Source: Diaporthe sp. PMI_573 (taxonomy: Eukaryota; Ascomycota; Sordariomycetes; Diaporthales; Diaporthaceae). From it: DNA of 64,000 bases. Below the pieces are notes generated by a model that worked only from the letters and a program-made list of their open reading frames with translations, searched no databases and was not told where the DNA came from. The stretch covers positions 1 to 64,000 of the forward strand of contig JAJTUP010000145.1 in the NCBI GenBank assembly GCA_021399435.1. The letters run 5' to 3'. The translations under genes and the position numbers were made by a program. The first letter of the stretch is position 1. Every line of letters begins with the position of its first letter. Of the stretch, positions 3,941 through 46,119 are shown piece after piece.

Positions 3941-4624
3941 TCACGCAGTAATGTCCTGAAAAGGCAGCGAAACCAGAGTGAAACCTATTGTGTTGATGGT
4001 GTAGGTATAGGCTTGGGTGATAGTATTCGGGGGCAGGAGGTGGTTGGCATGTACGCCTGGTCTGCTTCGCTGGTTAGTGGGAGCTCCGCGACTGTTTGCT
4101 CGCCCTTCCATGGGTGGGCGCCAAAGCTTCCAGCCGCGGTACAGCGGGCTGTTGCGGTCGACCCATCGCGGGATTGGGTACTGGTGGATGTATTCCTGCG
4201 CCAGGTACTCGGGGATGGCTCGGCCAATGGGGAAGTCGGGCAGAATGTCGCGAGGTACGTAGATGTTGCACTCAACATCGCGGTCAGGCAGGCCGTTGTA
4301 GCCTTCGTCGTGGAGAGATTGTCGGAACGCCGCGCAGCCGCCGGTTCGGCGAGCCAACAGGCTGTCGTATCGGCCGGTCGTGGTGTACGTTCGAAGCGAC
4401 ACACCTGTTTCTCCGCCGTACAAGTACGCAGCCCAACGGTACCCTTGGAGGGAGAGTTTGCCGGCCTTGCACGGCTCGGCCACCAGGCGACGATACTCGT
4501 CGGTGCGGCTTCGACGAGGCTGGTCCACGCCGGGGTCTCTGGACGTGGGAGTGTCGTGGGTATGGTTCAGACCGAATGGCGGGAGGGCCGTGGCAACGCG
4601 GGCTGGTCGGCAACTTGTTGCGGC
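3941..4624 (-). CDS. Unassigned third open frame between pol and the 3' LTR of the Gypsy element
   Basis: A frame open from a stop just above 4624 down to 3941 could encode up to 227 residues, but it has no ATG near its beginning; the first start-like codon is GTG at 4528. The product is rich in Arg, Tyr, Trp, Pro and acidic residues, with a compact stretch around EGYNGLPDRDVECNIYVPRD that reads like real protein rather than an antisense shadow. It follows the chromodomain end of pol by about 230 bp. I recognise no family. It could be translated from a spliced mRNA, be a captured host fragment, or be chance. The opposite strand has overlapping open frames of low-complexity V/A/G composition, which I regard as shadows. 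Confidence 0.4.
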   Translation of the reverse strand, partial: AATSCRPARVATALPPFGLNHTHDTPTSRDPGVDQPRRSRTDEYRRLVAEPCKAGKLSLQGYRWAAYLYGGETGVSLRTYTTTGRYDSLLARRTGGCAAFRQSLHDEGYNGLPDRDVECNIYVPRDILPDFPIGRAIPEYLAQEYIHQYPIPRWVDRNSPLYRGWKLWRPPMEGRANSRGAPTNQRSRPGVHANHLLPPNTITQAYTYTINTIGFTLVSLPFQDITA

Positions 4625-4850
4625 TTATGCGAGGATGGTTCGTCGCCGCTGACGGGCGTGAGGTTTGGACGGGCGGGCAAGCCGTGATGGTACAGGGCGG
4701 GCAGCGTGGTACAGACAGGCGGAGCAGATGGTGAGCAGTGTTCGTGAATGGTATGGGAATGCGCTGTGAATTCACGACAAGACGGTGAGGAAGGCGGTGG
4801 GTGGTTGCTTGGGTCGCGTGTGAATTCACCGTGTGTTGACGGTGAATTGT

Positions 4851-5957
4851 TTACACGCGCCTTGCCGCCCTACGATTGGCCCGTGCGTTTCGACTGAGCG
4901 ACGGGTCGACGGCAGCATGGCCGTCTGACATGGTCCCTTGGGCACCTTGGCCTTGTCCCTGCCGTGGTCCCCTTTTGTTTGCTGTCGCCGGCCGGTTGGC
5001 CGGCGACGCGTCCTGGTCGACACGGTCGAGGACCTTACGCGGTCCTCGGGGGGTGATGACTTCGCCTGGCTTGGGCAATGGTGGCTCCCTTGCTTCGAGG
5101 CCGTGGGCACGCTGACGGAGGGCTGCCATTTGTGCCCTCCGTGCCTCGAAGTCCTGAATCAGCTCCGCGGCCCGCATGTGCTTAGCGGGCATCCAGACGT
5201 TGTACTGGTTTGGGTGGTCCGCCCACTTGATGAGGTACTCGACCGTGGTAGCACCTCTCCCAACCTTGCGGTCCCGTCTCTGGATGATCCGCTCGACTTC
5301 GTAGTGTTTGAATGCCTCTAGTCCTTCGCCCTGGTCGTCCTCTACTTCCACGGCCTCCCCAAAAGGGGGGTCTCGGTGGTATGGGTCCGAGGCTGGAGGC
5401 TGTGCTGGTGACAACTGCGTCACGGAAACCACGTCGTGAGCGTTGATGTGTGGTGGGAGCCGCAGTTTGTATGCTAGTACGCCCAACTGGGAGAATTTTC
5501 GCGGAGGGTGCCCTGGTAGGTTATACCCTTTGCCTAAGGATATGTACACCCAGTCCCCCGGATGGAACTGTTTTCGCCGGTGTTTATGGTCGTATTGCAT
5601 TTTGGCTGCCATCTGGGCCTCGGCGATAGCAATTTGGGCTTCCTCCTGGTACATCTCGCGGAGCAATGGTGGGCATTCGTCCGCCAGCGAGCTTAGCTGG
5701 GACGGGTTGAATCCGTATAGCAGTTGGTTCGCCGTGCATTTGGTAGCCCGATTATACGCGTTGTTGAGGTTGAATTGCAGGGACGGTATAATGTCAGTCC
5801 ACTCGCCGTCGGGGTTTGTGGTTGCCCACATACGTATGGCAATTTCGACTGTCCTATTCTTAACCTCTGATTGCCCGTCGGTTTGTGGATGCCAAGCCGT
5901 GGAGAACAGGAGCTTGGTCTGGAGGTGCTGCCAAAGGCCTTGCCAGAATTCGGACAT
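4851..5957 (-). CDS. pol: Pol, C-terminal part: end of integrase plus chromodomain
   Basis: This continues the reading of 5971-8697 in another frame. It begins just after the second catalytic Asp region of integrase, carries the AWHPQTDGQSE block with the catalytic Glu, and continues through the integrase C-terminal domain (LYGFNPSQ and GDWVYISLGKGY regions). A chromodomain follows (about 5150-5320 in genome coordinates), with EVERII and EYLIKWADHPNQYNVWMP. The tail is basic. A single extra base near 5975-5985 separates it from the upstream frame: removing one G after the Pro-Lys codons would restore the usual integrase reading. I infer a disabling indel rather than programmed frameshifting, because nothing comparable is known at this position in integrase. 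Confidence 0.9.
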   Translation of the reverse strand: MSEFWQGLWQHLQTKLLFSTAWHPQTDGQSEVKNRTVEIAIRMWATTNPDGEWTDIIPSLQFNLNNAYNRATKCTANQLLYGFNPSQLSSLADECPPLLREMYQEEAQIAIAEAQMAAKMQYDHKHRRKQFHPGDWVYISLGKGYNLPGHPPRKFSQLGVLAYKLRLPPHINAHDVVSVTQLSPAQPPASDPYHRDPPFGEAVEVEDDQGEGLEAFKHYEVERIIQRRDRKVGRGATTVEYLIKWADHPNQYNVWMPAKHMRAAELIQDFEARRAQMAALRQRAHGLEAREPPLPKPGEVITPRGPRKVLDRVDQDASPANRPATANKRGPRQGQGQGAQGTMSDGHAAVDPSLSRNARANRRAARRV

Positions 5958-5970
5958 GAATTTCCGGTCC

Positions 5971-8697
5971 CTATCCGAGATGATTCGCTTTAGGAATTCC
6001 CCAGTTGGAGAGGTAGAGGGTTCGAAGCATGATGGTGGCCCAATCGGTGGCTGTGTATATTGCGTTGCCCGGTATGATAAGGGACGCTTTGCTGTATTTG
6101 TCCGTCACAGACATGAAGGCGTCGAAGAAGGGCGCCCGTGGCAGTTGCCACGGGGTGAGCGCAGCGGGTACATCGGGCAGGCTTGTGACGAAGTCAATAG
6201 ATATTGTATGGAACGGTGTTGGTGGTGAGAGTATGGGTTGCATCTCGCCTAGGGGTTTTTGATTGTCGTTGCGGTTCACCGAGCACACGGGGCAATTGTC
6301 TATGTAGTGGGCGATTTTGCGCTTGCAGTTCTTGATCACGTAGAGGTCGGTGAGGTCATGGTAGACCCGGTCTACCCCAAAGTGGTGTTTGGAGTCGTGT
6401 GCCTCGGCGATCAGTGTGTCAGCGACAGGGGACGGTATACAAAGTCGGTGCTTCCCGGTGAATTCCCTTAAGTACAAGAGACCACGTCCGTCCAGGGTGA
6501 ACGGGAGCTTGGCCTCTGAGTCGGATTGTTGCAGTTGTTGGATGATCTGAGACCACCGCTTGTGTTCTGAGTAGGCAGCGAGTAGTTGTTCCTTGAAATC
6601 CGGATCGATTTTGGTTTCAGACATTGAATGTATGGCGAATTCAAGAAGGTTGTCCAGGACTCCCTCATCTTCGACTGGCTGTTGGTAAGTCGGGAGGCGG
6701 GACAGGGCGTCGGCGATGATGTTCGTAGTGCCGGGGATGTGATGGACGTCAAGTTGGTGCTGGCTAAGGTATTCGGAGGCCAGCACCAATTTGAGGTTCA
6801 TTTTGGTTTTGTCCACGGTCTCCATGGAGGTTTGGTTGACGATCCCGACTGTTGCGGCGTGGTCGGTGAGGATGTGGACCGGTTGTACCCGGTTGGATCC
6901 GATGATTGTACGGAGCTTGCGGACGAGCCAGACAAGACATGCCACTTCCAATTCTGTTGGCCAATATTTCCTTTCCGCGGTGTTGAGTGTCTTGCTGAGA
7001 TATAGGACGGGGCGTATCCATGCGCGTGGGATAGGCGACTTGCCGTCCCAGGTCTGTCCGTCGGCGAGCTGGAAGCATATTCCTGAGAAGCCGACCTCCT
7101 TGGAGGCATCCAGCTGGATGAATAGCGGGCGGTCGGGGTCTTGGTGAAACAATGCGTTCGGTCCTGTTAGGGCGGCCTGCAGGTCGGTGAAGGCATTCAG
7201 TTCCTCCTTCGTTGGCGTGAAGTCCGCCCGTCGGGTGTACTGTTTTCGTGAGCTGCCCTTAGGCAATTTTCCGTCGGTGCGAGCTACGGACAACATCGCT
7301 GTCTTTCGGCGTTGGAGCGGGTTTACCCGTTGACTATACCGGGGTATTAGGTGTCTGAGATATCCGGTCAGACCGATGAACTTTTCCAATTGTTGGAGTG
7401 TAGCCGGGAACCGAAGTTCGCGGATGGTTTTGATGCGGTCTGATGTGTTGTATAGGCCGAGTCCGTCGACGCGGAATCCGAGTAGTTCCACGGAGGGGTA
7501 GCCAAGGAAGGATTTCTTAGAAGACAGGGAAATGTTTTTGTCTTGGAAGAGTTTGAAGACGGTGCGTAGGTGACGGATGTGCTCGGCAGCGGAGTCCGAA
7601 AATACGATCATGTCGTCGATGAACGCTGTTGCGAAGGCGCGGTGCGGTCGCAGCAGGTGATCCATGTAACGCTGTACATGCGCCGGCGAATTGCGGAAAC
7701 CCATGATGGCTACCTTGAACCGTTCTTGCCCGCGGTGGCTCACCACGGTGAATCGATCCTGGTGCGGAGGATAGACCATGAATTGATAGAAGAACAAGCT
7801 GGCGTCTACTACCGAGAGGTAGGCCTTGCCTCGTATCTTCCGAATGACCTCGGATTGAAGAGGCAGTGGGTATGCGTCGGGCACAGTAACCTTGTTGAGC
7901 GCCCTAAGATCTACCACAATTCTGCCTTTACGCTGACCGTGTACTGTCCTCCAAACCACGAAGATGGGCGAGCCAAATGGGGTGGCCGTGTTAACCCACT
8001 CAGCTCTACCTTTTGCGTGAAGGCCGTCCATGAGTTCATCGATGAGTTTCCGGTCTTCTTCGCTGGAGTAGTATGGTCTTTTACCAATTTTGTGGTTCTG
8101 CCATCCTTCTACCAGTGGTATTCTCATCTGGTGGTCTTCTGGGATGTCGATCGGTCCATTGTCTTCGAAGATATCTCGAAATTCCTCTACTAGTTTCCCG
8201 GCGTTATCGAGGAACTGGAGCGAGCCGTTGTACACGTGGACTCCGTTCGGCAATTTCGTCTCCGGTAGGTCCTTTGACTTGGAGATGCCTAGTTTGCCGT
8301 CTGGTCTTAAGTGTTCGCGGAACTCCGAGATCTCGCGTTCAGGCAATGTTTCGAGGTGTTCGGCGTCTGGCTCCGCTCCTGGAGGAGCAGTTGTGCCGTC
8401 CTTGGTTTGGATGTCGTGCGAACCGGCCAGAGTGTTTAAGAGATTGGTCGGGTCGAATGTCTTAGAGAAGGGCAATAGATTGTTCGTTGGTGGATGGGCC
8501 ATCGATTCCACGACAGCCTGTACTCCCAGCTTCCAGCTGGTGGGACTCATGTGTTCTGAAACGAATGGTGATAGGATTCCGAGGCGAGAGTTTCTTCGGA
8601 TGCGTATTGGGTACGGCGACTGGTTTACCGCCATGACTCCGCATGTTTGTCGGCCCACTAGGCTGTTCACCCAGCCTTCTTGTTCGGGCCTAAACAA
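5971..8697 (-). CDS. pol: Pol: reverse transcriptase, RNase H and N-terminal integrase (Ty3/Gypsy)
   Basis: 908 residues. RT occupies roughly residues 200-400, with fingers motif VDLRALNKVT and active-site box FIDD (F replacing the usual Y). RNase H follows, with FIQLDASKE, a TDH motif and the end motif IADALSRLP. The integrase zinc-binding HHCC region lies near residues 800-840 (H..H..CPVC), then the first catalytic Asp in SIDF. The listed start is a TTG codon. The frame actually stays open upstream across the gag stop at 8703-8705, so pol is probably made by -1 frameshifting from gag rather than from its own start. It makes the cDNA and, with the part at 4851-5957, integrates it. It ends at a TAG created by the frameshift near 5975. 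Confidence 0.93.
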   Translation of the reverse strand: MFRPEQEGWVNSLVGRQTCGVMAVNQSPYPIRIRRNSRLGILSPFVSEHMSPTSWKLGVQAVVESMAHPPTNNLLPFSKTFDPTNLLNTLAGSHDIQTKDGTTAPPGAEPDAEHLETLPEREISEFREHLRPDGKLGISKSKDLPETKLPNGVHVYNGSLQFLDNAGKLVEEFRDIFEDNGPIDIPEDHQMRIPLVEGWQNHKIGKRPYYSSEEDRKLIDELMDGLHAKGRAEWVNTATPFGSPIFVVWRTVHGQRKGRIVVDLRALNKVTVPDAYPLPLQSEVIRKIRGKAYLSVVDASLFFYQFMVYPPHQDRFTVVSHRGQERFKVAIMGFRNSPAHVQRYMDHLLRPHRAFATAFIDDMIVFSDSAAEHIRHLRTVFKLFQDKNISLSSKKSFLGYPSVELLGFRVDGLGLYNTSDRIKTIRELRFPATLQQLEKFIGLTGYLRHLIPRYSQRVNPLQRRKTAMLSVARTDGKLPKGSSRKQYTRRADFTPTKEELNAFTDLQAALTGPNALFHQDPDRPLFIQLDASKEVGFSGICFQLADGQTWDGKSPIPRAWIRPVLYLSKTLNTAERKYWPTELEVACLVWLVRKLRTIIGSNRVQPVHILTDHAATVGIVNQTSMETVDKTKMNLKLVLASEYLSQHQLDVHHIPGTTNIIADALSRLPTYQQPVEDEGVLDNLLEFAIHSMSETKIDPDFKEQLLAAYSEHKRWSQIIQQLQQSDSEAKLPFTLDGRGLLYLREFTGKHRLCIPSPVADTLIAEAHDSKHHFGVDRVYHDLTDLYVIKNCKRKIAHYIDNCPVCSVNRNDNQKPLGEMQPILSPPTPFHTISIDFVTSLPDVPAALTPWQLPRAPFFDAFMSVTDKYSKASLIIPGNAIYTATDWATIMLRTLYLSNWGIPKANHLG

Positions 8698-8702
8698 GAA
8701 GG

Positions 8703-11700
8703 CTACTGTTTTTCCAAGTTCCCGGTAAAGACGGGAACGATGCGATGGGATCGCGGCGGAATTATAGTGTTTGCGGCTGCTCTTACCACATGAGTCCTTT
8801 CAGGAACCTTGGCAAAGATAGCGGCATCCACCGTGGCGCCGCCGAAACATCCGAACGCGATCTCGCCCGAGCTGTTCAACACGTCCACTTGGTGCGGCAC
8901 CATGAATTCCTGGCCGACCAAGAGACCAGCATCTAGTCGATCCAGTACCCAGGCGCCAAGGCGAACGGCCAGGACCATCTTCTGGCCGCTGACGTTGCCT
9001 TGGTGGTAGATGTTGAATTCGGCCCATCCTAGTGCCTTGGTGTGGCCGACGCCTCTGATGTTGGCTTTTGCTTGCCAATTGACGGTGGCGTCTGGGAAGT
9101 AGCCTAGGTATGCCCGTGACACCGCGCACCGAGATGCGCCAGTGTCGTAACAAGCGGTGAATACGGGTCCATCTACCGACCCTCGGGTCTGAACTCTGGC
9201 GTATGTATAGCCACACCCTTTCACAGGGGAAACTTCTGGTGGGTTACTCATTCGCAGCACTGGCCCTGCCCATTGGCCGGGCCTGGAGCTCAGTCGCTCG
9301 CCTACCGGGCGGCACCTTGAATGGTGTTGGCGGTATAGTTTTTGGGAGGAGAGCGTGGCTCCGCAGCCGTAGCATTCCAGGTTTGGAGCTGTGTAGATGT
9401 ACTTGTCGTCGTATAGACCAGAGTCCGCACTCCGGCCGCTGGTGGCGGGTTCGACAACGTATAGGTCGACGTCGTCTACCAGCTGGTAGCCGGTTTCCTC
9501 GGTCGAGCCGTGTCCGGCTGAGTCGGCCGGTTCGTCTTCATAGCCGTCGTCGGCTTGTTGATCAGGGGCGTCCTGGTCGTCCTTGCTTTCACCAGCTTGG
9601 AGTTCGTCGTCGACGGGGTAGTATCCGTCGGTAAGGAGTTTCTCCTCACGAGTCGAGTCATATTGGAACTGGCCGTTGTCGACGTCAAACGCCTGGATCG
9701 TCTCAGCCAGGACGTTGCCTTGGTTGTCCCTTTGACCAAATCTTCGCCGCAGGCGGAGGGCCCCGGGGGCCCTGTCCTGAGGGCGACGGTCCCTTTGGGG
9801 TTCCTGGTCCGCTGCATTGGTGAGCAGCTTGGGTCGCTGCTGGGCTGGCCCGACCCTCTGCTGCCAGCCCTCTCTCACTGCTCGTCGGGCTTCCATCAGC
9901 TTTCGCCGTTGCTCCGGCGTCATGTTCCGGTACGTGTCATCCGAAACGAAATCTGCAGGTCGCGGGTTCGGTTGAGTAGGGCGATTCCGCGTATCCTCTT
10001 GTCGTCTAGGGTAGAGGTTAGGAATGTTGATGTGTATCGGGGGTAGGGCCGGTTGGTTGCGGCCGGCGGGTGCGTGGTGAAGTGGGCCTCCACGGATTTG
10101 CGCTGGTAGCGGCCGGAATTTCATACGGTCCTTTTCCCACAAATGCCACGTCTCTTGTTTGTCGCGGAGCGATGTCTCGAATTTGCGGGAGTCGTACCCT
10201 ACTGGCGGTCGGTCAAAATATGGGATCACCAGAGCCTTGTCGATCTGGTCCCACATGTTCCGTGCCACGAAGGATGGAGGTTGCTCCGCGAGGAGGGTAA
10301 ATCGGCGGACGCGCTGGGTGTACTCCTGCACATTGCGGTTGCCATAGGCGTCTGTGCGGGAGTAACGCTGTTGGTGAAGGATGGTCTCCGCGGTATCCCG
10401 CGGGATTTGGAAGTTTTCCAGGAGGTATTTCTTCCAACGGTCCCATACTCCCGGCGTAGGGCTGGTAAGAGAAGCCCGTTCTGAACCGTCGAGAGTGGTC
10501 CAGAACCACGGATGGGCTATTCCTGACAGGCAGGAGGGCAGGTTGTAACTGAGCCATGCAGCTCGATGGCTGTCTTGGCGGATGTATATCTCACATCGAT
10601 CAATAAAGCCCTGGGGGTCTTTCCATACAATCACTTTCCCATCTACCTTCGATACTTGCAAGAGTTCGGGGAAATTACTCCAGTTTTCATAAGGCTCGAA
10701 TCGCCCTATGTTGGTATCCTTGAATTCCTTATCGGCTCGGAAGTAGGAGAGCTCGTCGTAGTACGGGTCGTCCGGTGGATCTCCGGGCCCTTGGCTGCGT
10801 GAACCTGGCCAGCCGTCCTCTGACGGTTGGTGGGTGTAGTAGACATGGGGGTCGTCGTCTTCATCATGGCGTTGACTGCTCCTTTCTCGCGGTGGTGCTC
10901 CCGGGTTTGCTCCTGAAGCAGCCGGCGGATTGGGTGGTTCCGGCTGGGCTCTCGTGGGCACGGGCCGAATAGTTCGGCCGGGCCCCTGGTTAAAGGGCCG
11001 TGGCGGCTGCCTTGGAGGTGCCGCGTCCGTCCTGCCGGGATGTGCTGGTGTAAACACCCCGGAAGCTTGGGCAGGGGGAGATGTCCGTGATTGCCCGGCT
11101 CGGAAGGCCTTAGAGAGCAGTATTCTTGTTGCGGCACGCTGATCAGGGTTTATCAAACTTCCTAGGAGGATGGTTATCTCGTCCGATTGGAGATACTCTT
11201 CGACTGACCCCGGGGCTGGGGGGTCCATTCCTTGGCTCGGGAATTGGGGCGTGGCCGTCCGGGGTACCTGGGTACCGATACTTTCGGTGTCGTCTCGGAT
11301 TCCTTCGGGAGATACTGAATGCGACCCTGAACGTCCCTCGGTGTTTGAAGGCGAACCCGATGGGTTTTGGGGGTTTTGAGAGGTCCCCCCCATTTCCGGT
11401 TCCTCAGAGACTTGGGTTGTTGTTGTTAATTGTTGTGAGGTCGTATCCGCTGGGTCGAGAGTACTGTAGGTTGGTGGCGCGAAGTTGATACGTTCGACGT
11501 CAAAGTAACGCTTTACCACGACTTCTCGATCCTGGGCGGTGCCGCAACGACTAATCTCTTGGAGAAACTCGGTGTGTCGGGTTGCTGACCAAGGGGGATT
11601 CAGTTCGTCGAGTATTACCTGTCTGTCGGCTGGGTCAACGGTGGTCACTAGCTGGCGTAGCCGGTAGTGTATCTGGTGAGCATTGACAAGAGGTTTGTTG

Positions 11701-12080
11701 TGGAGACGCCAATTTTGGTAGTTGTCGGTGAATATTTTCGTGGGTTGGCTGCTTGATAGCCAGCTCCGTGGGACTTGTGTTCCTCCTTTTGCTTCCACCC
11801 ACTTTCTGGCGGAGTCAAATTGTTTGTCTGCTGACTTTAACGGGTTGTAGACCTGGGAGTACCGGTCGTATAGCGATTGCCAAGCGGCAAAGTTAGCAGC
11901 TACTTCTAGTAGATCTTGGTCCTCTAGAGTAACAGAGGACAAGAAGATATCTGGTTGTTTAGCTATTGCTGCTCGAAGGCGAAATAGTCGCGGCTGCTCC
12001 TTGACTGGTTGGAAGTCGGCGGGTGGCTGGGGGAATGTAGGTCCAAAGCGGGAGTCGAGTTTATAGGATTCCCGCGGCAT
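8703..12080 (-). CDS. gag: Gag polyprotein with C-terminal aspartic protease motif
   Basis: 1125 residues from the ATG at 12080; a GTG two codons earlier is less likely. The first half is a long Gln/Pro-rich region. The capsid-like part is around residues 480-640 (YENWSNFPELL ... EYTQRVRRF). Near residue 930 is a Cys/His finger (CYGCG ... HHSRC). Close to the C-terminus lies CYDTGAS, the DTGA active-site motif of retroviral-type aspartic proteases. It forms the virus-like particle and processes the polyprotein. At over 1100 residues it is longer than most fungal Gypsy gag products because protease is joined to it. No stop or frameshift is visible. Confidence 0.9.
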   Translation of the reverse strand: MPRESYKLDSRFGPTFPQPPADFQPVKEQPRLFRLRAAIAKQPDIFLSSVTLEDQDLLEVAANFAAWQSLYDRYSQVYNPLKSADKQFDSARKWVEAKGGTQVPRSWLSSSQPTKIFTDNYQNWRLHNKPLVNAHQIHYRLRQLVTTVDPADRQVILDELNPPWSATRHTEFLQEISRCGTAQDREVVVKRYFDVERINFAPPTYSTLDPADTTSQQLTTTTQVSEEPEMGGTSQNPQNPSGSPSNTEGRSGSHSVSPEGIRDDTESIGTQVPRTATPQFPSQGMDPPAPGSVEEYLQSDEITILLGSLINPDQRAATRILLSKAFRAGQSRTSPPAQASGVFTPAHPGRTDAAPPRQPPRPFNQGPGRTIRPVPTRAQPEPPNPPAASGANPGAPPRERSSQRHDEDDDPHVYYTHQPSEDGWPGSRSQGPGDPPDDPYYDELSYFRADKEFKDTNIGRFEPYENWSNFPELLQVSKVDGKVIVWKDPQGFIDRCEIYIRQDSHRAAWLSYNLPSCLSGIAHPWFWTTLDGSERASLTSPTPGVWDRWKKYLLENFQIPRDTAETILHQQRYSRTDAYGNRNVQEYTQRVRRFTLLAEQPPSFVARNMWDQIDKALVIPYFDRPPVGYDSRKFETSLRDKQETWHLWEKDRMKFRPLPAQIRGGPLHHAPAGRNQPALPPIHINIPNLYPRRQEDTRNRPTQPNPRPADFVSDDTYRNMTPEQRRKLMEARRAVREGWQQRVGPAQQRPKLLTNAADQEPQRDRRPQDRAPGALRLRRRFGQRDNQGNVLAETIQAFDVDNGQFQYDSTREEKLLTDGYYPVDDELQAGESKDDQDAPDQQADDGYEDEPADSAGHGSTEETGYQLVDDVDLYVVEPATSGRSADSGLYDDKYIYTAPNLECYGCGATLSSQKLYRQHHSRCRPVGERLSSRPGQWAGPVLRMSNPPEVSPVKGCGYTYARVQTRGSVDGPVFTACYDTGASRCAVSRAYLGYFPDATVNWQAKANIRGVGHTKALGWAEFNIYHQGNVSGQKMVLAVRLGAWVLDRLDAGLLVGQEFMVPHQVDVLNSSGEIAFGCFGGATVDAAIFAKVPERTHVVRAAANTIIPPRSHRIVPVFTGNLEKQ
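8706..8715 (-). promoter_or_regulatory. Candidate -1 frameshift site at the gag/pol junction
   Basis: On the minus strand gag ends GAA AAA CAG TAG. Slipping back one base at the five-A run enters the pol frame, which has no stop around this point. The A-site tRNA would re-pair perfectly, but the P-site would have a mismatch, so the heptamer is not canonical. Reinitiation is the alternative. Confidence 0.45.
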
Positions 12081-12274
12081 ATTCACCGTGGATTCACGGT
12101 GGATTCACAGTGAATCGTTGGCGACCACGTAGAGTGTTGGTCAAAGGTATTCTTTGACCCGATGGCTGACAGGAGTGCTGCAGCCCGATCCGTATAATTA
12201 ATACACAGCGATGGCGACGGTTTGTCTACCCGATCCTTTTAACAAGGCGATCACGCAACGGGGGCGTGCTAATT

Positions 12275-12284
12275 GTAGCTACCA
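12275..12284 (-). other. Primer-binding site of the Gypsy element
   Basis: On the minus strand, two bases inside the 5' LTR, the sequence reads TGGTAGCTAC. It starts with TGG (complement of tRNA CCA) and resembles the TGGTAGC primer site of yeast elements primed by initiator Met tRNA. The tRNA identity is inference. Confidence 0.6.
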
Positions 12285-12286
12285 TT

Positions 12287-12468
12287 TGATGGGAAAATAA
12301 TATTGTAAAACGATGCCCTCCTGAATTCACAGAGAATTCACGGAGGATTCCCTAACTATATAAATACACGGTGAATTAACAGTGAATACACCGTGAATTC
12401 ACCGTGAACGAATGGATTCACGGTGAATTCACGGGAAATTCACCAGTGATGCACCGTGGGGTGCATCA
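12287..12468 (-). repeat. 5' LTR of the Gypsy element
   Basis: 182 bp, identical to 3577-3758. It is followed at 12469-12473 by GGTGC, the same 5 bases that precede the other LTR. Confidence 0.95.
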
Positions 12469-28036: not shown

Positions 28037-28918
28037 CAGTGTAGGGTTCCGGTCGAGGTAATTTACCGAATGGTAATTTACCTATCTGACCAAAGTTTTT
28101 GACGTCATAAACTTCTAGGAATTTTACATGTCAAAAACCTCTCATTGGCCGATGTCCATATCATCCCCACTATTTTCCAAATCGGTCTCTTCCCAACCCC
28201 AGCCATCGACAACAGTAGAGTCTTGGAAGGCGTTTTCTATCTTTACTAGCTGAGCAACATCAACTGTCTCCCAGTTTTTGACAACCATCGGTTCTGCCGC
28301 ATTATCTTTCACCGTCTTGAGCCTCGTGAGCACCCGACTGTTCATATAGGTGAAAGTGACCTTGTCAGTGCTAAGTGGACTAAGCCGATTCCGAAGCTTA
28401 CAATGAAGGTAGTTCGTAGCACTGAAGGAACGCTCTGAAGGAACAGAGTTCGCCAAGGATCCTAGAACTCTCCTTGCCAACGTAGCCAACTTGACTCCCA
28501 TAGACCCAAAGTATCTCCACGCGCTTAGGACGTAATAGTGAGAAGGCGTATGAGGAGTATTCGGCTGTTCTCGATAGATCCGCGAGGTTGGGCCAAAGAG
28601 AGCACCTTCGCGATCACGGAATCGACAAAACTCCCCAAAGAGCTGTTGGTACTCTTCGACACTAGTGTTTTCTTCTAGGAAGCAATGTGCTCTCTCCATA
28701 GTGTCAAGCCCAAGACCCTCCCCTATTGTTGTCCGTGGGTCCAGGGCAAATGCAAAGTAGTAAATGTCTGTCGTTTGGCCTTTCATCCTTTGGACTCGCC
28801 ATTGCCTCAGCTCCGAGTAGTTGAATAAGAGGATCTTGGTTAGCCTCTTCAAGGGCGTCAACAAGGCAGCAGTGGTTCGACGTTTGGGACATCCTATTCC
28901 CGGACAAAGACAGACCAA
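28037..28918 (-). pseudogene. hAT transposase C-terminal part, second subfamily, with left element end
   Basis: The frame 28142-28918 reads to a hAT dimerisation block: RRVLGSLANSVPSERSFSAT followed by LHCKLRNRLSPLSTDKV. It differs clearly from the other hAT copies here (NSVPSERSFSA rather than MSSECERLFSA), so it belongs to another subfamily. The tail is acidic. The upstream part of the transposase is missing. The sequence at 28037 (CAGTGTAGGGTTCC) fits a hAT terminus starting CAGTG. Just inside lies a small palindromic patch made of GGTAATTTACC-like units (28055-28083). No matching right end was seen. Confidence 0.75.
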
Positions 28919-28941
28919 GCTCTATATACCTTGGGAACTTC

Positions 28942-29342
28942 ATGGAAGAAACACTCGGTTACATTCGAAATCGGTGTCAGGACGGGAACTTGGAGGCAAG
29001 ATTGCGCACCCTAAGGAACAGACACGGCGAGGCAGTGGATACAGAGCTTGTCAAAGACGTCGTCACTGTCGTTTGGGACTGGTTCCATACGTCATCGACA
29101 ACACGCACGCAGGCTGCGAGTCCGGACCTGTTGAGGCAGATACTTCTTCTCAGTCAGACACGAGCAGTTCAACCACGTCCATTTCGGACCTCGGCATTCT
29201 ACATAAAGGTGTCAACGTTGGTCGCCCTTGGCATTTGACGGACGTTCCCCATATGTATGGTTTTGAACCAGGCGGCTTATGGCCGGAAACATCATACCAA
29301 GACTTTTTGGACATTTGGGACCTGGAGGATGTAAGCACATGA
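28942..29342 (+). pseudogene. Unassigned coding-like fragment
   Basis: From the ATG at 28942 one frame reads like ordinary protein for about 55 residues (ETLGYIRNRCQDGNLEARLR). A neighbouring frame then does so from about 29100 to 29342 (Ser/Thr-rich, then DVPHMYGFEPGGLWPE and SYQDFLDIWDLED). A single frameshift near 29100 would join them. I recognise no domain. Confidence 0.3.
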
Positions 29343-30428
29343 AGTTACTTGTTTTCTTTGGTAATCTCTTGCTCGGAAGCATTTCTATGTGATATATTTG
29401 GGTGGATCGCTATCAATTACCCGTGTACTTTGACTCACCAGGGAATGGTTTGCTCAATTAGGACCCTGTCAATCCAGTCCTGTATTGCTGCTTGATCCAA
29501 CCATGCGCTTGAGGCGCCTGCGGTTCCGCGACCGCCCGCGGCCTTGAAGGCCGCAGCTCCAGACTCACGTCGTCATCAAGGTCCGCCCGCTGTGCCACTC
29601 GCCTAGCCCACCACAACGACACCGTAGCTAGATATTTAAAGGGCAGACGCCTCTTTGTACCTTCTCTTGAAATCTCTTCTCTTGTCTTTCATTTTATTCT
29701 CCTGCAATATCTGCTCAACGCCCTCGTCATTAAAAACTTATGAGCTGGGATAATTACTAAATTCTAGTTTCGTTAGCTAACAATCGAATCCTCGCCACCT
29801 CGGACTAGATGGTCGCCGAGAATATACGCTTCTAGTATCCCAGACATCTTGGCACAGTGTTATCAGATCTGGAGAGGGGGTTCTCAATGCAAGAACGAAA
29901 TGATGGGAGCTTCCACAAATGTGGTGTGGCGGGTGTGCTGGTGGCGCTGGAAACGTGCCGAATGAATGAGGAACCTCAGGGTTAGCTTATAAGTATATAA
30001 TAAAGCTATGTTTTAAATTGGAAGTAATTAGGGTTTAAATCGATTTAGTTATTAATAAAAACTGAGGTAATGCTTTCCAAACCACAGTCATTACTGTACA
30101 AAATCCTAGCCAAGTTCTTTTATTTGCATGATAGTCATTTTGATAGGCGGCAGATCCTTGAGACTTTGGATACTCTTCGCGCGAGTGGAAAAATTACAGA
30201 GACATTGCAGAGCCTGTTCATTGAAGGCAGAGCTAGAGCCCGTGGAACGATGAGGAGAGAATTGTGATCATAGGCACGTGCAGCAGTGATCGGCGCCTGG
30301 ACGTCCGCCTGATCCCCTCACATAACTTCCACGTCCCTCCAACCATCACGTCAACCATCAACAACTGCACTCCAAAGCCCGCCACAAGGAACAGCAATAT
30401 CGTTGAAGAAACACAAACCATTATCACA
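29343..30428. other. Intergenic, including promoter and 5' UTR of the H2A.Z-tail/HET gene
   Basis: There is a GC-rich hairpin near 29525-29560 (gcggccttgaaggccgc) and an AT-rich stretch around 29985-30060. The last 160 bp are C- and A-rich with ccaaccatcac and caaccatcaacaac tracts, as in leaders of well-expressed fungal genes. No gene is supported, though a short frame at 30070-30267 is open. Confidence 0.5.
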
Positions 30429-32261
30429 ATGACCGGTGGAAAGGGCAAGTCCTCGGGCGGCAAGAGCTATGGTGGGAAGACGTCGGCCACCGATAGCCAA
30501 AAGAAGCAGCGGAGCCACTCTGCCCGTGCCGGTCACACTGCTCTCTCCTACGTCTGGGGCGAACCGGCACCGATTGAGACTATCATCCTCGATGGCACAA
30601 GTGTCGGTATCACAGCCAATCTGGCCTCGGCTTTGAGGGACACACGGGATCCAAGCCGCACGCATCGTATCTGGGCCGACGCCTTATGCATTGACCAGGC
30701 GAACACTGATGAGAGGTGAGCGAGGCGCCCGTCCCTCAGGATCTCCCCACCCGCCCCTTCCCCGACTTGTTGTTTATTTGCAGGTCCGATAGCGGTGGCT
30801 CAGGCCTTTATAATCGGACCTACTGACCTTCAAAGAAACCAGCAAGTCCCACTGATGGGGCAGATTTATTCGTGCGCCAGAAGCACGATCATTCATCTGG
30901 GACCTGAGACCGAGGTTGTTAAAACTCTTTTCGCGGAAGACCCAAAGAGTCAAAACCTCGACCTCATATTAAAAGATCTGGTAAAACGTCCTTGGTTCAG
31001 CAGGACCTGGGTCTTTCAAGAGCTCGTGCTGTCAGCCGACCCCTGGGTACAAATGGGCAGACGACGCATTCGTTGGCGCGAAATGTGTAAACTTCTACTC
31101 CCAGTGACACCACATTCATCTGCTCCTCAGCCCTACCACGCATCGCAGGACTCTAGAGAGCAGATCCTACGGCAGATGGAAATGATCCGTGGTCGCGGAT
31201 CAAACCGTGACTTGCTGAGCATACTCAATTTAAGGGCTGGCTGCCGCGCGACTGACCCCAGGGACGTGATATTCGCCCACATGGGTATGATAACAGACGA
31301 GCAGGAGGTTTCAAAATTCCTAAAAGTCGACTACAGAGCATCCATTAGAGACATTTATGTATCCGCGGCAAGGTACGCGCTGGCTTCGTTCGGCCTCGCC
31401 GTGACAGCTAGGAGCATCAAGAGACCACAGGGATGGGCACATCTGCCATCTTGGGCCCCCGACTGGGGTCTCCACTCTTGGCCAGGCGACTTTCCCTGCA
31501 GGATGTCCCAGGATCTGCTCGCAGGCAACGGGGACTGTCGTACCTCAGTGCTCGTAATCCCGACCACGAATCCATCTCTCCATTATGTGCGGGTCTCTGG
31601 TAGCACTTTTCCTTGGTCCGGCCCTCTTGAGCACATTCACGGCGTGGGCAAATTGCTGCCGCAGGCATCAGAAATGGATCTTCGAAAAAAGTTAATGAGA
31701 GAGCTTGCTTTGGTGGAAGAGTGTCCACGATTGGTATCGGACGAGGAATCGGGAGGGCTGGACGGCTCTTTCTTTTCCTGTGAGTTCTGGACTCCCCCGT
31801 ACCAGCAGGGAACGTCGGCAGAGAAAGCGTCGTATATTCGGGACCTCCTGAAGAAGCACTACTATCTGCGGAATAATGGGCATAGACTTGGCTTGGACTT
31901 ACCAATGAGAATCGTCATATCGCGATCCGGTTACTGCGCGTTGGTCTCTGCCAATGCGCAATTCGGAGACATCATCGCCAATTGCCCCAAGGAGCAGTAC
32001 GGCTATCTTCTTGGTGAGCAAATATTTGGCTACTCTGGCGACCGCAGAACAAAATTGCTCAGCTGTCTTCTCAGGCCGTCCCAGTGGGAAGGTGGCAAAA
32101 GCGTGGAAGACACTATTGCACGAATGACGGGCCATCCTGCAACGCAGCTCAATGTAACTCATTGTGTGCTGGTCGACATTCTTGGCGAGACGGAGATGCA
32201 TACCCTGCCACTGGATCTGAAAATGGCACCCGGAGACATCAATTGGCTGATTATACACTGA
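30429..32261 (+). CDS. HET-domain protein with a histone H2A.Z-like N-terminal tail
   Basis: Exons are 30429-30715 and 30836-32261, giving 570 residues; the intron starts GTGAGC and ends AAAG. The splice is chosen because it gives IDQANTDER-NQQVPLMGQIY, the normal HET consensus. Residues 1-35 read MTGGKGKSSGGKSYGGK, then TSATDSQKKQRSHSARAG, which matches the N-terminal tail of fungal histone H2A.Z up to the SHSARAG point. Histone continues from there into LQFPCGR, but here the HET domain begins at once (HTALSYVWGEPAP). Further HET motifs are RIWADALCIDQ and RPWFSRTWVFQEL. The long C-terminal half lacks a recognised domain. HET proteins trigger cell death in heterokaryon incompatibility. The gene lies upstream of and co-directional with the NLR gene. 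Confidence 0.85.
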
Positions 32262-33146
32262 ACGCATGCGAGATTCTCTGTCAGCGGGAATAGTATAAGC
32301 CCAGTCAGGAGACATTGGCTGGCTCTGCAATCTAGTCTACAAGATCTGTCAGAAGAACAACCAGGTTGCCAATTGTTCTTGATCGCATTTTTGTCTGTGT
32401 TCCTTCCTCGCGAAATACCGGTACGTGGAGCCGACCTATTGCCCAATTGTCGGCTTGCCTGCCTCTCCCATCAAATATTGTAGCTTGTAGATTTGCTTTT
32501 GGCGGTGGCTGTGTGGGTGGGGGTGCTGAACTTCTTTCAGAGAAAGTGCAACATTCTCCAGCTGTGAGCGAGGATCAACAAGCATATGCAGGCTCTCACC
32601 AAAATGAGGCTATCATGCAGGTAAGAGAGGCTAGTTTTCAGCTCGTAGACGCCATGTCAGCATTTAGTTTCTCCACATCAGGCTGGGGTATATGATGTAA
32701 CGATCGGGAATCTCCAGGCGTGAATGGGTATTTAGTTCGGCGAAATGCGAGGTGTGTGATTCAAAATAATGTTACGCCTCAAGTCTTTAATTCTGCCCAT
32801 ATTGTACATAGTGCAGAGTGGTATGTATTATCTACAGACAGGTTGTCGAATTTCACAGGCCAGCCGAACTGATCAGCTGTTTACAGGGGTTTGATAATGC
32901 CGCAGGCGCTTACCTGCATATTGCACTAACAGCACCCCATGACATGTAGGGGCTCAAGGCTGAGCAGGGTAGCAACGAGATGATTCTTAAGATCGTCGCA
33001 CACGGAGCCTGATTCTTGAGCGTCGATCGTGTATGAATAAAGTCTCCGCCTGAAGTCCTTCGTCGCGACCACGAAAGCTGTCTTGTCCCTAATCAACATA
33101 ATCCGAATTATCAGCCGGCACGGAGAGACAGATCTCTGGCATAAAC
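32262..33146. other. Intergenic between the HET and NLR genes
   Basis: No coding signal in either direction. It presumably holds the terminator of the HET gene and the promoter of the NLR gene. Confidence 0.5.
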
Positions 33147-36100
33147 ATGGCGGAGCCCACCATCTCTCTGGAGGATATCTGGGCCGAGGCAGCGAAACGC
33201 TTTCAGGAAATCTGCGGCGAGTCACTTCAGAGAGGTGACGTGAAGAACTTCGATGATGTGAAGAATAAGATCGAAAATGTCAACAAGCAACCGTACGGCG
33301 CTAGTGATGAAGAAGACGACAAGTGGGATAAGGCGAAAAGCGTGGGCCTTCAATCTCTGAAATACATGAAAATGCTGCTTGGAGCCGCATCTCAGGCAGC
33401 TGTCTTTGTGAGTCTTCTTGTAGGGTGTTTTAAGGGAAACAAAGCTAATATTGCTAGATTCCTGTGCCGTCAGCTGCCGCCAACATCGCAGGCTCTGCTC
33501 TAAGCTTTGTTTTCGACGTACCTGAGAAAATCAAGGGCTACAATGACGCGGTGGATAGTGTCTTTACAGAAGTCTCTTCAGCCCTTTCACAGTTCCGGGT
33601 TTACCAGTCGATCGACAATATGAATCAACCATTGCTGATCGAGCAAATCCATCTCGTGATGGCCAGCATGGTCAAGATATGCGCGCATGTCGTGAAATAT
33701 CGCCAGGGCCGGCGACGCGACCGGCTCAGGAGGCAGATTGCGGCTATCTTTGATGACAATAAGCCTCTGGACGCAGAGATGAGCGAGTTCAGGAGACTTT
33801 TACAGGCCCAGCGGGATGTTGAGGGGACAGTGACCTTGAGCGTGGTGGTGAAGACGCAGTCTGGTGTCGCCCAGCTGCTGGAAAGCTTCGCGGTTTTCGC
33901 CAAGACGGCCGACGACACAAACCAGGGGGTGCACGCTCTCAAGGACGACAACGACCGCACCAAATCTCTCAACAATATTCGTGACACCTTGCAGATACCT
34001 TCGACTGTGCTCCTCCATACACGAACCACGCAGACTTGCACCGACCACGCGTCCAAATGTTTGCCTGGCACCGGGTCCTGGATATGGACGGATGAGGCAT
34101 TTTCCTCCTGGAAAGAAGGGAGTACAAAGGTTGAGGATCGTCAAGTGTCGAACGTCCTTGTCATCTCAGGCCCTCCCTCAAGCGGGAAGACTCTGGCCAC
34201 CGCACAAATCATCAAGCACCTGGAGGAGGAGAAAGGCCGCACGTACGTTGCGCATTACTTTTTTCTGCCCGCCAGCAGGAAGGCAGACGAAGACAACAAG
34301 TATCCTGTTCACACATGCCTGCGCTACATGGCCTTCCAGATAGCTAGGGTGGACGCGACTGTGAGAAAGGCGTTGGGAAAGGCGTGCGACTCGGCAGGTG
34401 CCTCGGTGTTGACGCGGAACACGTCTTCCAACCTTGATAGCTTGTGGTCAGAGTTCAAGATCGGAGGTTCAGGGTCGACTTACTACCTTGCTTTCGATGG
34501 GATCGAGAACCTGGATGATAAGGACCGCGATATGCTGCTGCGCTTTATCTTCAGCTCGAAATTGGCCGAAGAACCTGCCGGCCGTGTGCGAGTGCTGGTC
34601 AGCGGGACGGAGAAACTGCTAGACGGCCACTGTAAACCCAGCAGAGTGTGTCGAATCGATATGGAACGATACAATGAGAGGGATATGCGTCTGTACATCG
34701 AGGACAGACTCAACAAACAATCCTTACTCCGGCATGCCAAGCCTGGGTCCATACAGCAGAAGGCAAGGAACAACGTACTAGCGAAATTGCCCCCAAAGGC
34801 AGCCGGAAGCTACTCTCAGCTACAATTTGCATTGGACGAGGTGGCTCGGATGCTGAGTTCCCGGACATCCTTCGATGAGCTCGATAAAGTGTTGGATCAG
34901 GCTATGAACAGTCACGAGACAGCCATCAAGGCCTTGCAGCGGTCCTTAACAGTTGAGGAGATTGAGGAACTGAATGAGCTACTGAAATGGGTCCATTTTG
35001 CCAACGATAGAATGACGGTCGCCGAGCTTGAATCAGCAATGGTAAGTGCATCTCATGCTCCTAAAGCTTCACCCCTGAGGATTGCTTTCACTTTACCCAC
35101 TCATTTTGGAGGCCAAAGAGCTGATGCCTATTGTGAAGCTGCTGTATTCGGACAAAGAGTCCATTGGTCTCCTCGAGGACATAATCGCTAGCAAGTACTT
35201 GGCAATCCTCAAGATAGACACCTCAGCCGACGGCACGTTCGTTGAAGGCCAAGATGGAGCACTGGAGTACTTGCAAAAGGAGAAAGCGCACAAGGTTCGA
35301 CACTCGAAGGACCAGCCCGTCATCAGTATGACAATCAACATCAGCAATGTGGACCAGGAGATCGTGGGCCATTTCCTGTGGGACTTGGCCCAGAAGGCAA
35401 TCCGCGACCAGTTCCGATTCAACTTGGACTCAGCCTCGAATACTTCACACGCGAGGCAGATATCCATTGCCGTGGATGAGTTCGAGGCACACCATGCGCT
35501 AGTCATGCGAGCCTTCAAGTACTTGACTGGAGAGCCCAATGAAGCAACCGACTTAATAGGGCGCTATCTCTTTTACTGGCTGCCGTACCATTTGGGCGTG
35601 CTCACGCAGCTTGACTACGAGGAGAAGGGATACCTGATGCCAGATGAGCAACTCGACATTGGGAAGAATCTTTATGAGCTCTTCAAGGACGCAGAGCTCT
35701 TCAATCGTCACAAAGCTACCGTGGAGCGTATCTGGTGGACTGCTGAAGAGATTGAGAAGGTGCACAAGTGGTTGATGAATTCGGCTGTCGTGCGGAGGGT
35801 GCCAAAGCAGTGGCGCGAAGAGGTTCAAGGCGCTCCAAGTCCTGTGAGGGGTTTCATGATGCCTTTCGTCAAAGCAGTCATCGAGAATTGGTTGAGAAGC
35901 CGTGACCGCTTGTCGGAAGAGGCGTCATTGAATTACAGGGCTTGGATACGTGGTTTCATGGAGGTGGTGAGTTGACTACTGATGTCTTCTTTTTTCTTCC
36001 CCAGTATCCAAACGGACTGATCCTCTACGGGTATGACTCTTTTCTCTACTGATTCATTAACATATCCTCCTGTTAGGACGACAAAACACAACAACGACCC

Positions 36101-38086
36101 CAGACACCTCGTACACCCCGTACAAATGCAGCAAGCCCAAGTTCACCAAGCTCAACAGATAGCGAGCCTTCAATGACCGATTGGGAGCGTGTCAGTGCGT
36201 GGTGTCAGACCTTCCTGGACCTTCCAGAGTCTGAACTTGACTCTCTGTGGTGGGAACGCATTGCGCAGGGAGCACTCAATGAGAGCAGAGATTCCCCAGA
36301 GGTCGTTATGCCGCTTTTCAGGCGCGCACTAGCCCAAGAAAACCCAAGTTGGTATTGTCACTTTAGCCTGGCCGGATGTCATTATCAAATGGACCATCTG
36401 CCAGAGGCCATTTCTGAAGCCGAGCTAACACTGGAATCAACGAAATGCGAAGGTTGTAGGCCGACTCCAAGCGAGGCCGACCTAATGATGATTCATTTTC
36501 GGCTTGGGTCCTTGTACTTGGGAACCGAAAATATTCAACAGGCAACCGAGCAGTTTCTGATTGTCTCCAAGGGCTCAGATGTGTACTGGGCGGAACAAGG
36601 TCGAGTGGCTTACATGAAAGCAATCTTGAAAGCCAATGATTCAGAAGGGACAAAGAATATGCTCCGCAGCGCCTTTGTCACGGATGAGAGCGAAGCAAGC
36701 AAGGTGCGCGTCCTGAAGATGATTGCCAGAGATTATGAGCACAACTACACGATATCGAAGATCTTCGACATTACCAAGGGCGACCCTGAGCTTTTCAAGG
36801 AGCTTACGGCTATTTTCAAGAAGGCAACAGATCCTCTGGCTTCGGGGCAAGACCAGGCCACCGACATGTCCAGAGATGACCGGTTTGCAGACCAGGAAGC
36901 CCGCGGGGTACTGCTCTATCATTGGGGAATGACAGTGGCATATAGGATGTCATCAGGGGACACCAAGTCCGTCACAAATGCGCTGACATTCTGGGAGGAT
37001 TGCCGCGATCAGCTCCGGATCATCGGTGGTCCAGTGGCGTCCACGACCAGAACGAACGCTACCTCCCAGCTCGCCAAGTACTATTTCCAAAGCCTACTGA
37101 CGGAACAAGGGCCCACGGAGCACTTCGATGGACTCTCAAAGCTCGCGGATGAAGATTCTAGCGCCGAGGGCGAAGACCCTGCCGGATATTTGGCCATACT
37201 TTATGCCCTCCGTGATGAAAAGGAGAAGGCGAAAAAGAGACTTTCGCGACGGATCAAGATCGCGATGGATATCCTGTCAGACGATCAGCCCCAGAACGAC
37301 TATCTGGGACACCGGGCCCTTTTCAAGTGCCTGGCCTATTACCAGGATTTCGACAACGCAGCCGCTGCCTTGACGCTGATGGGAGCGCCGGACCTCATTA
37401 CCAATGCTTTCCAGTTCGAGGATTATGACTTTTCCGGTGAAGACGACGTCGGAAATGAAGATGGAGCCGGAAAAGATCTCGTTATCGAATTCCTGAAAAG
37501 TACGGGCAAAATGATCTCGCACCTGGTGAAGATGAAGGTCCCGGACTCCTCACAGCAGACTCGGCGTATCGAAGTGGCCAAGGAGGAAGTCGAGGGTCTG
37601 GTGGACACGGACTCTACAACATCCAAAGTCAATGTCATCCTAAAGGCACGCATATCAGCCCTGCAGGATTCACAGGCCTCGGTGATGCAAGAAGCGGTCT
37701 ATACATATGGCTGGGGGTGCAACGGGCTTGGGCCTCCGGGCACGACGTGCGACAAACAGGCCGACTTTGACCACGAGTTTGTCCACTGCATCTACTGTGC
37801 CAGCTCTGACTTTTGCCCGGACTGTTTCAGGAAGCTGCGGCAACAGTCGACTCCGGCCATGCAGTGCAGCGCAGAGCACGTGTGGATAAAGATCCCGCGG
37901 CAGGGTAGTGACTTCTACCGAGGATCCGAGGCTAAGATCTTAAGGGTGCCAGTGGTCAGGCCCGTCGAGGGTGATAGGAATTTGTTGGAGGCGTGCTACG
38001 ATGGAGGTCAAGGAATACAGGAGCTAATGTTAGAGGCATGGAAGGCAAAATTGGCAAAGGAGTGGGACATAGCACTGGAAGAGTAA
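33147..38086 (+). CDS. STAND/NLR protein: Goodbye-like N-terminus, P-loop NTPase, helical repeats, C-terminal zinc finger
   Basis: Four exons (33147-33407, 33458-35041, 35112-35966, 36077-38086) add to 4710 nt, 1569 residues, in one frame. Introns are 50, 70 and 110 nt with GTGAGT or GTAAGT donors. The N-terminal ~110 residues (ISLEDIWAEAAKRFQEICG) resemble the Goodbye domain of fungal STAND proteins. The NTPase has Walker A VLVISGPPSSGKT (about residue 315) and Walker B YYLAFDGIENL (about 425). An all-helical half follows, with TPR-like segments such as AEQGRVAYMKAILKANDSEG. A Cys-rich finger sits near the C-terminus (about 1440-1510: CNGLGPPGTTC, CIYCASSDFCPDC, then C..HVW), ZZ-like. These proteins are fungal analogues of immune receptors, with the C-terminal half sensing and the N-terminus signalling. 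No break is visible. Confidence 0.82.
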
Positions 38087-44711: not shown

Positions 44712-46119
44712 GTCTCAAGTCCATGCCGTTGCCAACCTGCAGTCTACTTTCGCCAACACTTCGACTCTCAAGTTAACATATCCCAATACTGTCACGCTAC
44801 AGCCGACGATGGGGATCTCTGTGGGCCAAGAATACCCTGCCCAAGCTCCTGGCGGCAACTTTGAACTCAACATCCCACTAGGAAGTCTGCAGTACGGCCA
44901 GTCTCGGGACATCTACTTGAGGTGGAAGAGCAGCTCTACAGACAGTGACATAGAGCCGTCGTTTCTAAACGTCGCACTTCAGTACAACAAAATGACAGAA
45001 GCACAGCATGTTAACCATGCCAGCCGGGACCTCATGGACCTATCCTTCACATCGCTCTCCGACGCCGAGATAGCCAGCCAGGTCTCCCGATCCCGCATCT
45101 GCGCCTTTCTCTCCGAGCTCTTCTTCCCGATAGACGCCCTCGGGGAGCACCGCCTCAACCCCAACCTCGAGTGCCCGGCCGGCCTCGCCGAGAAGCAGCA
45201 ACAGCTCCGCGACCTCATCGCCTCGCTGCCCGCAGCCCACTTCCCCGACGACCCGATGTGCGTAGCCTTCATGCAGGACCTGGCCGGCGCCGAGCCCCTA
45301 GGCCAGGTCTCCCTCGCGCTCTCCAGGGACAAGTACCTCACCCGGTACGTGCCCACCGGGAGACTCGCCTCCAGCAGCAGGTTGATGCCCGCTAGTCCCA
45401 CAGCAATCTCGATGAGGGCTTATAACTCCTCTTCCGTGCCGTGCTTCGCGGGACGGACGCCCGTGCGCCTCGCCAACAACAAATACCTCCGGATCTCGTC
45501 GCTGCGCAGGGGTCACATCGTCGCCACGCCCGCCGGGCCCCGCAAGGTCGCCGCTGTGCTTTTGACGCCAGTGCACAAATATGACATGGTTCGTCTCGGG
45601 GATGTCCTCGTGACGCCCTGGCACCCCGTCGCCCTGCCCACTGACCTTGTGGACGGGCTGGAGGACGGGCACGGCTGGGTGTTCCCCGCGAAGGTGCAAC
45701 CGGGTAAGCTGGTGAGGTACACCGGCGCGATATACAGCGTGTTGCTGGAGAGGGACGGGGATATTGACGCTCATGCTATTTACCTTGGGGGTAGGTCAGA
45801 CGAGAGTCTGCTGTTCTGGGGCGTCACGCTGGGCCATGGGATGGCTGAGGCGAGGGAGGGCAGTGACGTGAGGGCACACCGGTTTTTTGGGAGCTACCAG
45901 AAGGTTGTGAGAAGCTTGGGGTCTTTGGGAAAGCGAAGTGATGGACTAGTTATTGGCGGTGGCGTGAGGAGAAGCAAGACCACTGGCCTGGTGATCGGGT
46001 TCAAGGCGTATCGGCGTCGAGCGGCTGGCAGCCTTATGTACCCGGCTCTCGCCGTTGGTGCGAAAGGACCACGCATGCTTCGGCCAGTTCACAAGAGGCG
46101 TAGAGCCGTGGCGTACTAA
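44712..46119 (+). pseudogene. VWA/Vint (Hint-like) domain protein, N-terminally truncated
   Basis: From the ATG at 44809 the frame has 436 residues. It stays open back to about 44712 (LQSTFANTSTLKLTYPN), where a CTAG could be a splice acceptor. The first ~50 residues fit the end of a VWA module (IPLGSLQYGQSRDIYL). A helical segment with Cys residues follows. From about 215, CFAGRTPVRLANNKYLRIS, RRGHIVATPAGPRKVAAVL and VTPWHPVALP match the Vint/Hint fold. A conserved C-terminal tail (GGGVRRSKTTGLVIGF) completes the protein. In fungi such proteins normally start with a U-box or VWA domain, which I could not find upstream. The ORF is not interrupted, so expression of a short form is possible. 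Confidence 0.65.

Follow-up and report, generated by a model that had tools for sequence, protein, structure and literature searches.

A predicted gene joining the leader and N-terminal tail of histone H2A.Z to a HET domain in the fungus Diaporthe sp. PMI_573

Two-part origin of the predicted gene

We analyzed a 64,000-nucleotide stretch of the genome of Diaporthe sp. PMI_573 (GenBank assembly GCA_021399435.1, contig JAJTUP010000145.1, positions 1 to 64,000; hereafter the window) and found that the gene predicted around position 30,429 is a true chimera, in which a HET-domain gene has received its leader and first 35 codons from histone H2A.Z. The strain belongs to the Diaporthales (Sordariomycetes), and PMC12526002 lists it under this accession. 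An earlier note on this DNA had proposed an H2A.Z tail on a HET protein, and the similarity is now established at the DNA level. On balance, we favor the explanation that the H2A.Z leader serves as the start of this chimeric gene, and that its product is probably still a working HET-type effector with altered activity.

The two origins show in DNA searches of the organism's own genome (83.7 Mb in 217 contigs, of which the window is C52:1-64000). With positions 29900-32600 as query, these returned two sets of strong matches meeting at 30534/30535. On the upstream side, 30415-30534 matched four near-identical H2A.Z copies (contigs C7, C78, C81, and C156) at 90% identity in exon 1 and the final bases of the leader (E 1.9e-38), and 30409-30532 was 90% identical to the canonical H2A.Z copy on C142 (E 3.9e-38). 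The tail recognized through this homology spans 35 codons at 30429..30533 on the forward strand (MTGGKGKSSGGKSYGGKTSATDSQKKQRSHSARAG), and the DNA match includes its SHSARAG end. On the downstream side, 30535-32267 was 75% identical to a single locus on C2, a HET paralog that keeps an ordinary HET start (MDQYEYAPLTEPDGMRLLLLLPAADRAAELCGSLLQTSIAVCSFDILSCYTALSYVWG). Since the match to this paralog starts at 30535, the break between the two similarities falls at 30534..30535 (forward strand), where the two share no more than ~1 base; the letters at the junction are GCCGGTC -> ACACTGCTCTC. The two parts meet in frame and within an exon, and the reading frame stays open. Native H2A.Z exon 1 encodes 37 residues, and the chimera thus breaks off 5-6 bases 5' of the native splice donor. 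When full-length H2A.Z was used as query, only residues 1-34 matched on C52, and neither the histone fold nor the C-terminal part was found there; the genome has six places with similarity to the beginning of H2A.Z, of which C52 alone continues into a HET gene. Compared with the histone, the chimera is alike in the leader and first 35 codons and lacks the fold and the C-terminal part.

Gly, Lys, and Ser abound in the tail, a composition that could by itself produce a low-complexity or chance resemblance to H2A.Z. However, 90% DNA identity over ~120 bases (E ~1e-38), together with a similarity that reaches into the leader, rules this out and leaves it a negligible probability; the earlier judgment that a chance match was implausible is thus borne out, and a resemblance confined to Gly, Lys, and Ser residues is excluded. 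A misjoin during assembly, connecting an H2A.Z copy to a HET copy, is very unlikely: the tail diverges by ~10% from every one of the other five exon 1 copies, the leader carries a deletion of its own, and a misjoin would have no reason to fall in frame. We also rejected a scenario in which an H2A.Z piece inserted into an intact HET gene, because no native HET start was found in the window (the best tblastn match, E 0.029, lies at 46369-46316, far from the chimera). A search of a plasmid collection returned no match.

Gene model and HET part

Past the break, the HET part of exon 1 (TALSYVWG... WADALCIDQANTDE; Pfam HET) occupies 30535..30715, and is followed by a predicted GT-AG intron of 120 bases (30716..30835), placed by alignment with the C2 paralog at the position of that gene's own intron, and by HET exon 2 (30836..32261), open to the conserved end INWLIIH, all on the forward strand. 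The joined exons encode 570 predicted residues without a premature stop. Both exons matched the Pfam HET family (PF06985; cut-off 22.5 bits), exon 1 at residues 37-95 with 47.4 bits and exon 2 with 34.4 bits. The nearest in-frame stop upstream of the ATG is at 30234. Because the WADALCIDQ motif comes before the next methionine (residue 103), only the H2A.Z ATG in the predicted transcript could yield a product with the first HET motifs. This ATG presumably sits in a good fungal start context, and we infer that translation starts there.

HET-domain proteins (PF06985) are described as distant relatives of TIR domains that mediate cell death in heterokaryon incompatibility (PMC10890737, PMC12881547); overexpressed HET domains are reported to suffice for killing cells (PMC12881547), and the killing mechanism is stated to be unknown (PMC10890737). 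A Foldseek comparison of our structure model with the PDB gave no hit at E<=0.001, and the TIR relationship is thus not demonstrable from the model; a sequence search of solved structures gave a single match, at E 0.37, which is not relevant.

Leader, upstream patchwork, and the promoter question

Similarity to H2A.Z extends upstream of the start codon into a leader at 30344..30428 (forward strand), which aligns collinearly with that of the canonical gene on C142 and ends in CACA before the ATG. A block at 30344-30402 is 77% identical to C142 over 60 columns, and the alignment of 30345-30428 to C142 scored 29.5, where the maximum of 300 shuffles was 22.5. The interval from this block to the ATG is ~48 bases shorter in the chimera than in C142. 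The block is common to the chimera and C142 only, being absent from the four H2A.Z duplicates.

Similarity to C142 ends 85 bases before the ATG: in shuffle tests it was not detectable upstream of 30344, the observed scores being reached by 127/300 shuffles for 30260-30345, 175/300 for 30219-30345, 49/300 for 30150-30260, and 127/300 for 30063-30150. Accordingly, no H2A.Z promoter could be recognized upstream of the chimera. The earlier note had proposed capture of the promoter, leader, and first codons, and had suggested an alignment with the H2A.Z locus as a check; that alignment retains the leader, back to 30344, and the 35 codons, and does not extend to the promoter. Any H2A.Z promoter would also have little room, at most ~125 bases as the upstream pieces are assigned here, because 30148..30218 (forward strand) resembles another gene, on C138 (83% DNA identity over 71 bases), and 29976..30062 (forward strand) is one arm of a palindromic repeat resembling a miniature inverted-repeat transposable element (MITE). 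The whole MITE-like repeat is present elsewhere in the genome, and its second arm was not found in the window. From its motifs, and without a family search, we take the C138 gene to be kinase-like.

Farther upstream, 28042-29440 consists of two multi-copy repeats, so that transposable element and gene fragments form a patchwork ahead of the HET gene. The first repeat (28042..28860) has seven other matches of 93-98% over the whole or nearly the whole length, one of 78%, and several shorter ones, and is overlapped by an open reading frame (ORF) on the reverse strand (28142-28918) with a hAT dimerisation domain (Pfam, 23.5 bits; cut-off 21.4). The second (28855..29440) has two further copies at 98-99%. 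For the sequence downstream of the chimera (32262-36500), the genome returned only weak partial matches (66-68%).

These observations bear on the idea that the fusion supplies an H2A.Z-like promoter and an acetylatable tail, the latter directing the HET domain to chromatin or the nucleus. The chimera does retain the SHSARAG end and every one of the six lysines of the tail, although the kept lysines say little since the tail has changed so little. However, promoter similarity is absent beyond 30344, the histone fold is absent from the chimera, and replacement changes in the tail are about as frequent as silent ones (dN 0.087, dS 0.103 against the duplicates, both branches together). We therefore reject promoter capture and regard this idea as a whole as improbable. 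With the histone fold missing, the tail would probably provide a start and a leader, not an address to chromatin.

Donor of the H2A.Z piece

At silent sites, the chimera tail is closer to the duplicates on C7, C78, C81, and C156 (dS 0.10) than to C142 (dS 0.29), on only ~26 silent sites, and residue 28 is an arginine in the chimera and the four duplicates and a glutamine in C142. The canonical gene on C142 is thus not favored as the immediate donor. Because the tail is closer to the duplicates at silent sites while the leader block is common only to C142, the donor was probably a sister H2A.Z copy that has been lost or is no longer recognizable.

The four extra H2A.Z genes are 97.7-100% alike (C7:186109-186955, C156:590021-590867, C78:18046-18896, and C81:39188-40038; L010-L013). 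Those on C7 and C156 lie in identical stretches reaching contig ends and have a 2-base insertion in exon 2, while those on C78 and C81 do not share this arrangement. Proteins P0128 and P0142 are named histone H2A.Z by NCBI.

Scattered H2A.Z fragments and transposons

Two results go beyond the earlier note, namely the removal of an N-terminal block typical of the HET subfamily (see below) and the scattering of H2A.Z fragments through the genome. Such fragments were found at eight other places, on C153 (from residue 38 on), C198 (residues ~94-143), C14 and C212 (last exon), and C168, C211, C159, and C184 (within residues 41-91). There are fewer underlying events than places: one and the same match accounts for C14 and C212, and the pieces on C168, C211, C159, and C184 belong to a common repeat, whose copies matched an 801-base query at 95-98% identity along most or part of its length. 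In this repeat family (C168, C211, and C159, L064-L066, and C184), the exon 2 fragment shows 94% DNA identity with the canonical gene in the three copies read.

Two of the fragments directly adjoin repeated ORFs. On C153 (L014, 336149-337100), H2A.Z exons 2-3 without exon 1 lie directly 3' of, and out of frame with, an ORF encoding a BED finger (PF02892, 20.9 bits; cut-off 20.6), in a repeat with eight other copies at 96-99%. Since intron sequence is kept between the two exons, this piece is a genomic rather than a transcript copy. On C198 (L067, 113200-114300), the last H2A.Z exon lies directly 3' of a transposase-like ORF that has nine other copies at 97-99% over the full query; a Pfam search of this ORF gave no match, and we presume from its appearance that it is hAT-like. 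For comparison, H2B was found at one locus and H4 at two, with no fragments listed for either, these two being the only control genes searched on purpose; canonical H2A turned up once, in the H2A.Z search. The H2A.Z piece of the chimera probably has its source in the same process by which H2A.Z exons were dispersed across the genome, in some cases to sites beside transposons. The C153 piece, which does not overlap the chimera tail, may be the other half of a copy that broke apart.

These patterns can be compared with known cases of gene copying by transposons. For Pyrenophora tritici-repentis, and for Pseudocercospora fijiensis and its relatives, hAT-mediated transduplication of histone H3 has been described (PMC6710886), in an article whose main text never uses the term H2A. 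As in the H3 case, a housekeeping histone has been copied mostly in pieces, with transposons nearby and the original intact. Unlike in that case, the histone here is H2A.Z, the copies are few, at least one of them is genomic, and one is fused in frame to a host gene; further, no enclosing element was found for the chimera. The C153 and C198 pieces abut repeated transposon-like ORFs. In plants, Pack-TYPE transposons are reported to capture and shuffle coding DNA (PMC8903248). The chimera is similar in that gene fragments of several loci lie beside host coding sequence, and differs in that no enclosing element with terminal repeats was found at the chimera and in that the host is a fungus.

Maintained gene or early decay

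We propose that, through a rearrangement in a transposon-rich island, the leader of an H2A.Z copy and the greater part of its exon 1 came to lie before a HET gene whose native start codon and initial 50 residues had been lost. The product would consist of a HET core, probably TIR-like, preceded by a basic and probably flexible tail of 35 residues. It would most likely still be a HET-type death or defense effector, with its activity altered because a conserved block of two strands and a helix is gone. If the gene has a function, it most likely acts as a HET effector whose front end has been exchanged.

The main alternative, which we judge a real though clearly less probable possibility, is that the chimera is genuine and dead or dying: the HET gene would have been beheaded, with an H2A.Z piece falling in frame by luck, too recently for stops to have accumulated. 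The nature of the lost block speaks for this alternative. Within the P0011 subfamily, an N-terminal block of ~50 residues (MA.YEYAPLTE.DGMRLLLL...) precedes TALSYVWG in 67 of 79 aligned members, and the chimera has the H2A.Z tail in its place; nine of the 12 members without the block are exon-2-only ORFs. A normal HET start was found in all seven close relatives with a readable exon 1. In the model of the C2 paralog, the replaced block forms two strands (14-20 and 30-38) and a helix (39-44) with high confidence. Against damage, three annotated relatives (P0031, P0034, and P0090) also start inside or after the block, which may reflect either gene-model truncation or a real tolerance of its loss. 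The HET exon 1 of the chimera is 84% identical to that of P0121, which has a normal start; a search for exon 2 of the P0121 gene returned only P0010 and P0012.

The open frame bears on the same question. In a neutral simulation of premature stops, in which indels were not simulated, the probability of no premature stop was 0.55, 0.28, 0.16, 0.03, and 0.006 at divergences of 0.01, 0.021, 0.03, 0.057, and 0.1, respectively. A recent fusion, at 1% or 2.1% divergence, would thus keep its frame easily, and the patchwork of transposable element and gene fragments around the chimera likewise fits a dead or dying gene. However, on our reading of the alignment table the chimera alone carries ~6 of the changes seen in the 105-base tail (0.057), and for a fusion as old as this 5.7% divergence an unbroken frame would be improbable, although some of these changes may predate the fusion. 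Because that probability is low at the divergence of the tail, the intact frame leans towards a maintained gene, short of proof.

In favor of the explanation preferred here, dN between the HET part and the C2 paralog was 0.197 and dS 0.755 (dN/dS 0.26 over 535 codons, and 0.16 in the first 90). In the exon 2 protein tree, the chimera branch (0.19) compares with 0.32 for the C2 paralog and 0.05 to 0.20 for nine relatives. Changes at otherwise invariant exon 2 sites numbered 12/176 in the chimera, 11/175 in C2, 12/176 in P0008, and 1 to 9 in the other eight.

Several of these results weigh against a maintained effector. The conservation and confident folding of the lost block in the paralog model argue for damage, and the chimera, the C2 paralog, and P0008 have the most changes at invariant exon 2 sites. 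Because the dN/dS and branch tests span both the period preceding the fusion and the period following it, they cannot reveal constraint on the chimera itself. Four tail residues (A2T, S14Y, E22D, and G23S, by reading of the table) differ from both H2A.Z lineages, and the tail itself shows little sign of constraint. In addition, no transposable element border enclosing the H2A.Z piece was found in the window. The chimera may thus be a young gene or a case of early decay, and we continue to favor the former, a HET-type effector starting from an H2A.Z leader.

Search for other H2A.Z-HET proteins

With the full chimera as protein query, 199 proteins matched at E<=0.001 among 7995 scored candidates, and the H2A.Z tail was absent from the best 120 of these 199. 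With exon 1 alone, 40 of 49 candidates matched, comprising six HET exons with native starts and 34 sequences with H2A.Z tail words. Tail and HET motif occurred together in none of the 160 proteins examined; P0008 had been flagged because its C-terminal part contains SARAG, a match by chance. A chimera in other genomes could be missed by this search, because many of the closest relatives are single exons taken from unannotated contigs. An H2A.Z-HET fusion was not found in the literature either, in the titles and abstract openings among the matches listed, with subscription journals mostly uncovered.

Other features of the window

Outside the fusion, an NLR-type gene with a Goodbye domain and an NPHP3_N NTPase domain lies at 33147..35191, ~900 bases downstream of the chimera and on the same (forward) strand. 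At 3577-12468, reverse transcriptase, RNase H, and integrase zinc-binding domains lie between two identical direct repeats of 182 bases, and this region is probably a young retrotransposon. A protein encoded at 44809-46119 has a strong match to the Vint (Hint-type) domain (177.5 bits).

Implications

If the chimera is expressed, a chromatin gene would have supplied the front end of a cell-death-type gene in a plant-associated fungus, with traces still fresh enough that the junction, the fragment-rich surroundings, and relatives of the two parents all remain readable. The scatter of H2A.Z pieces, with no H2B or H4 fragments found, also offers a second histone, besides H3, for studying transposon-linked copying in fungi.
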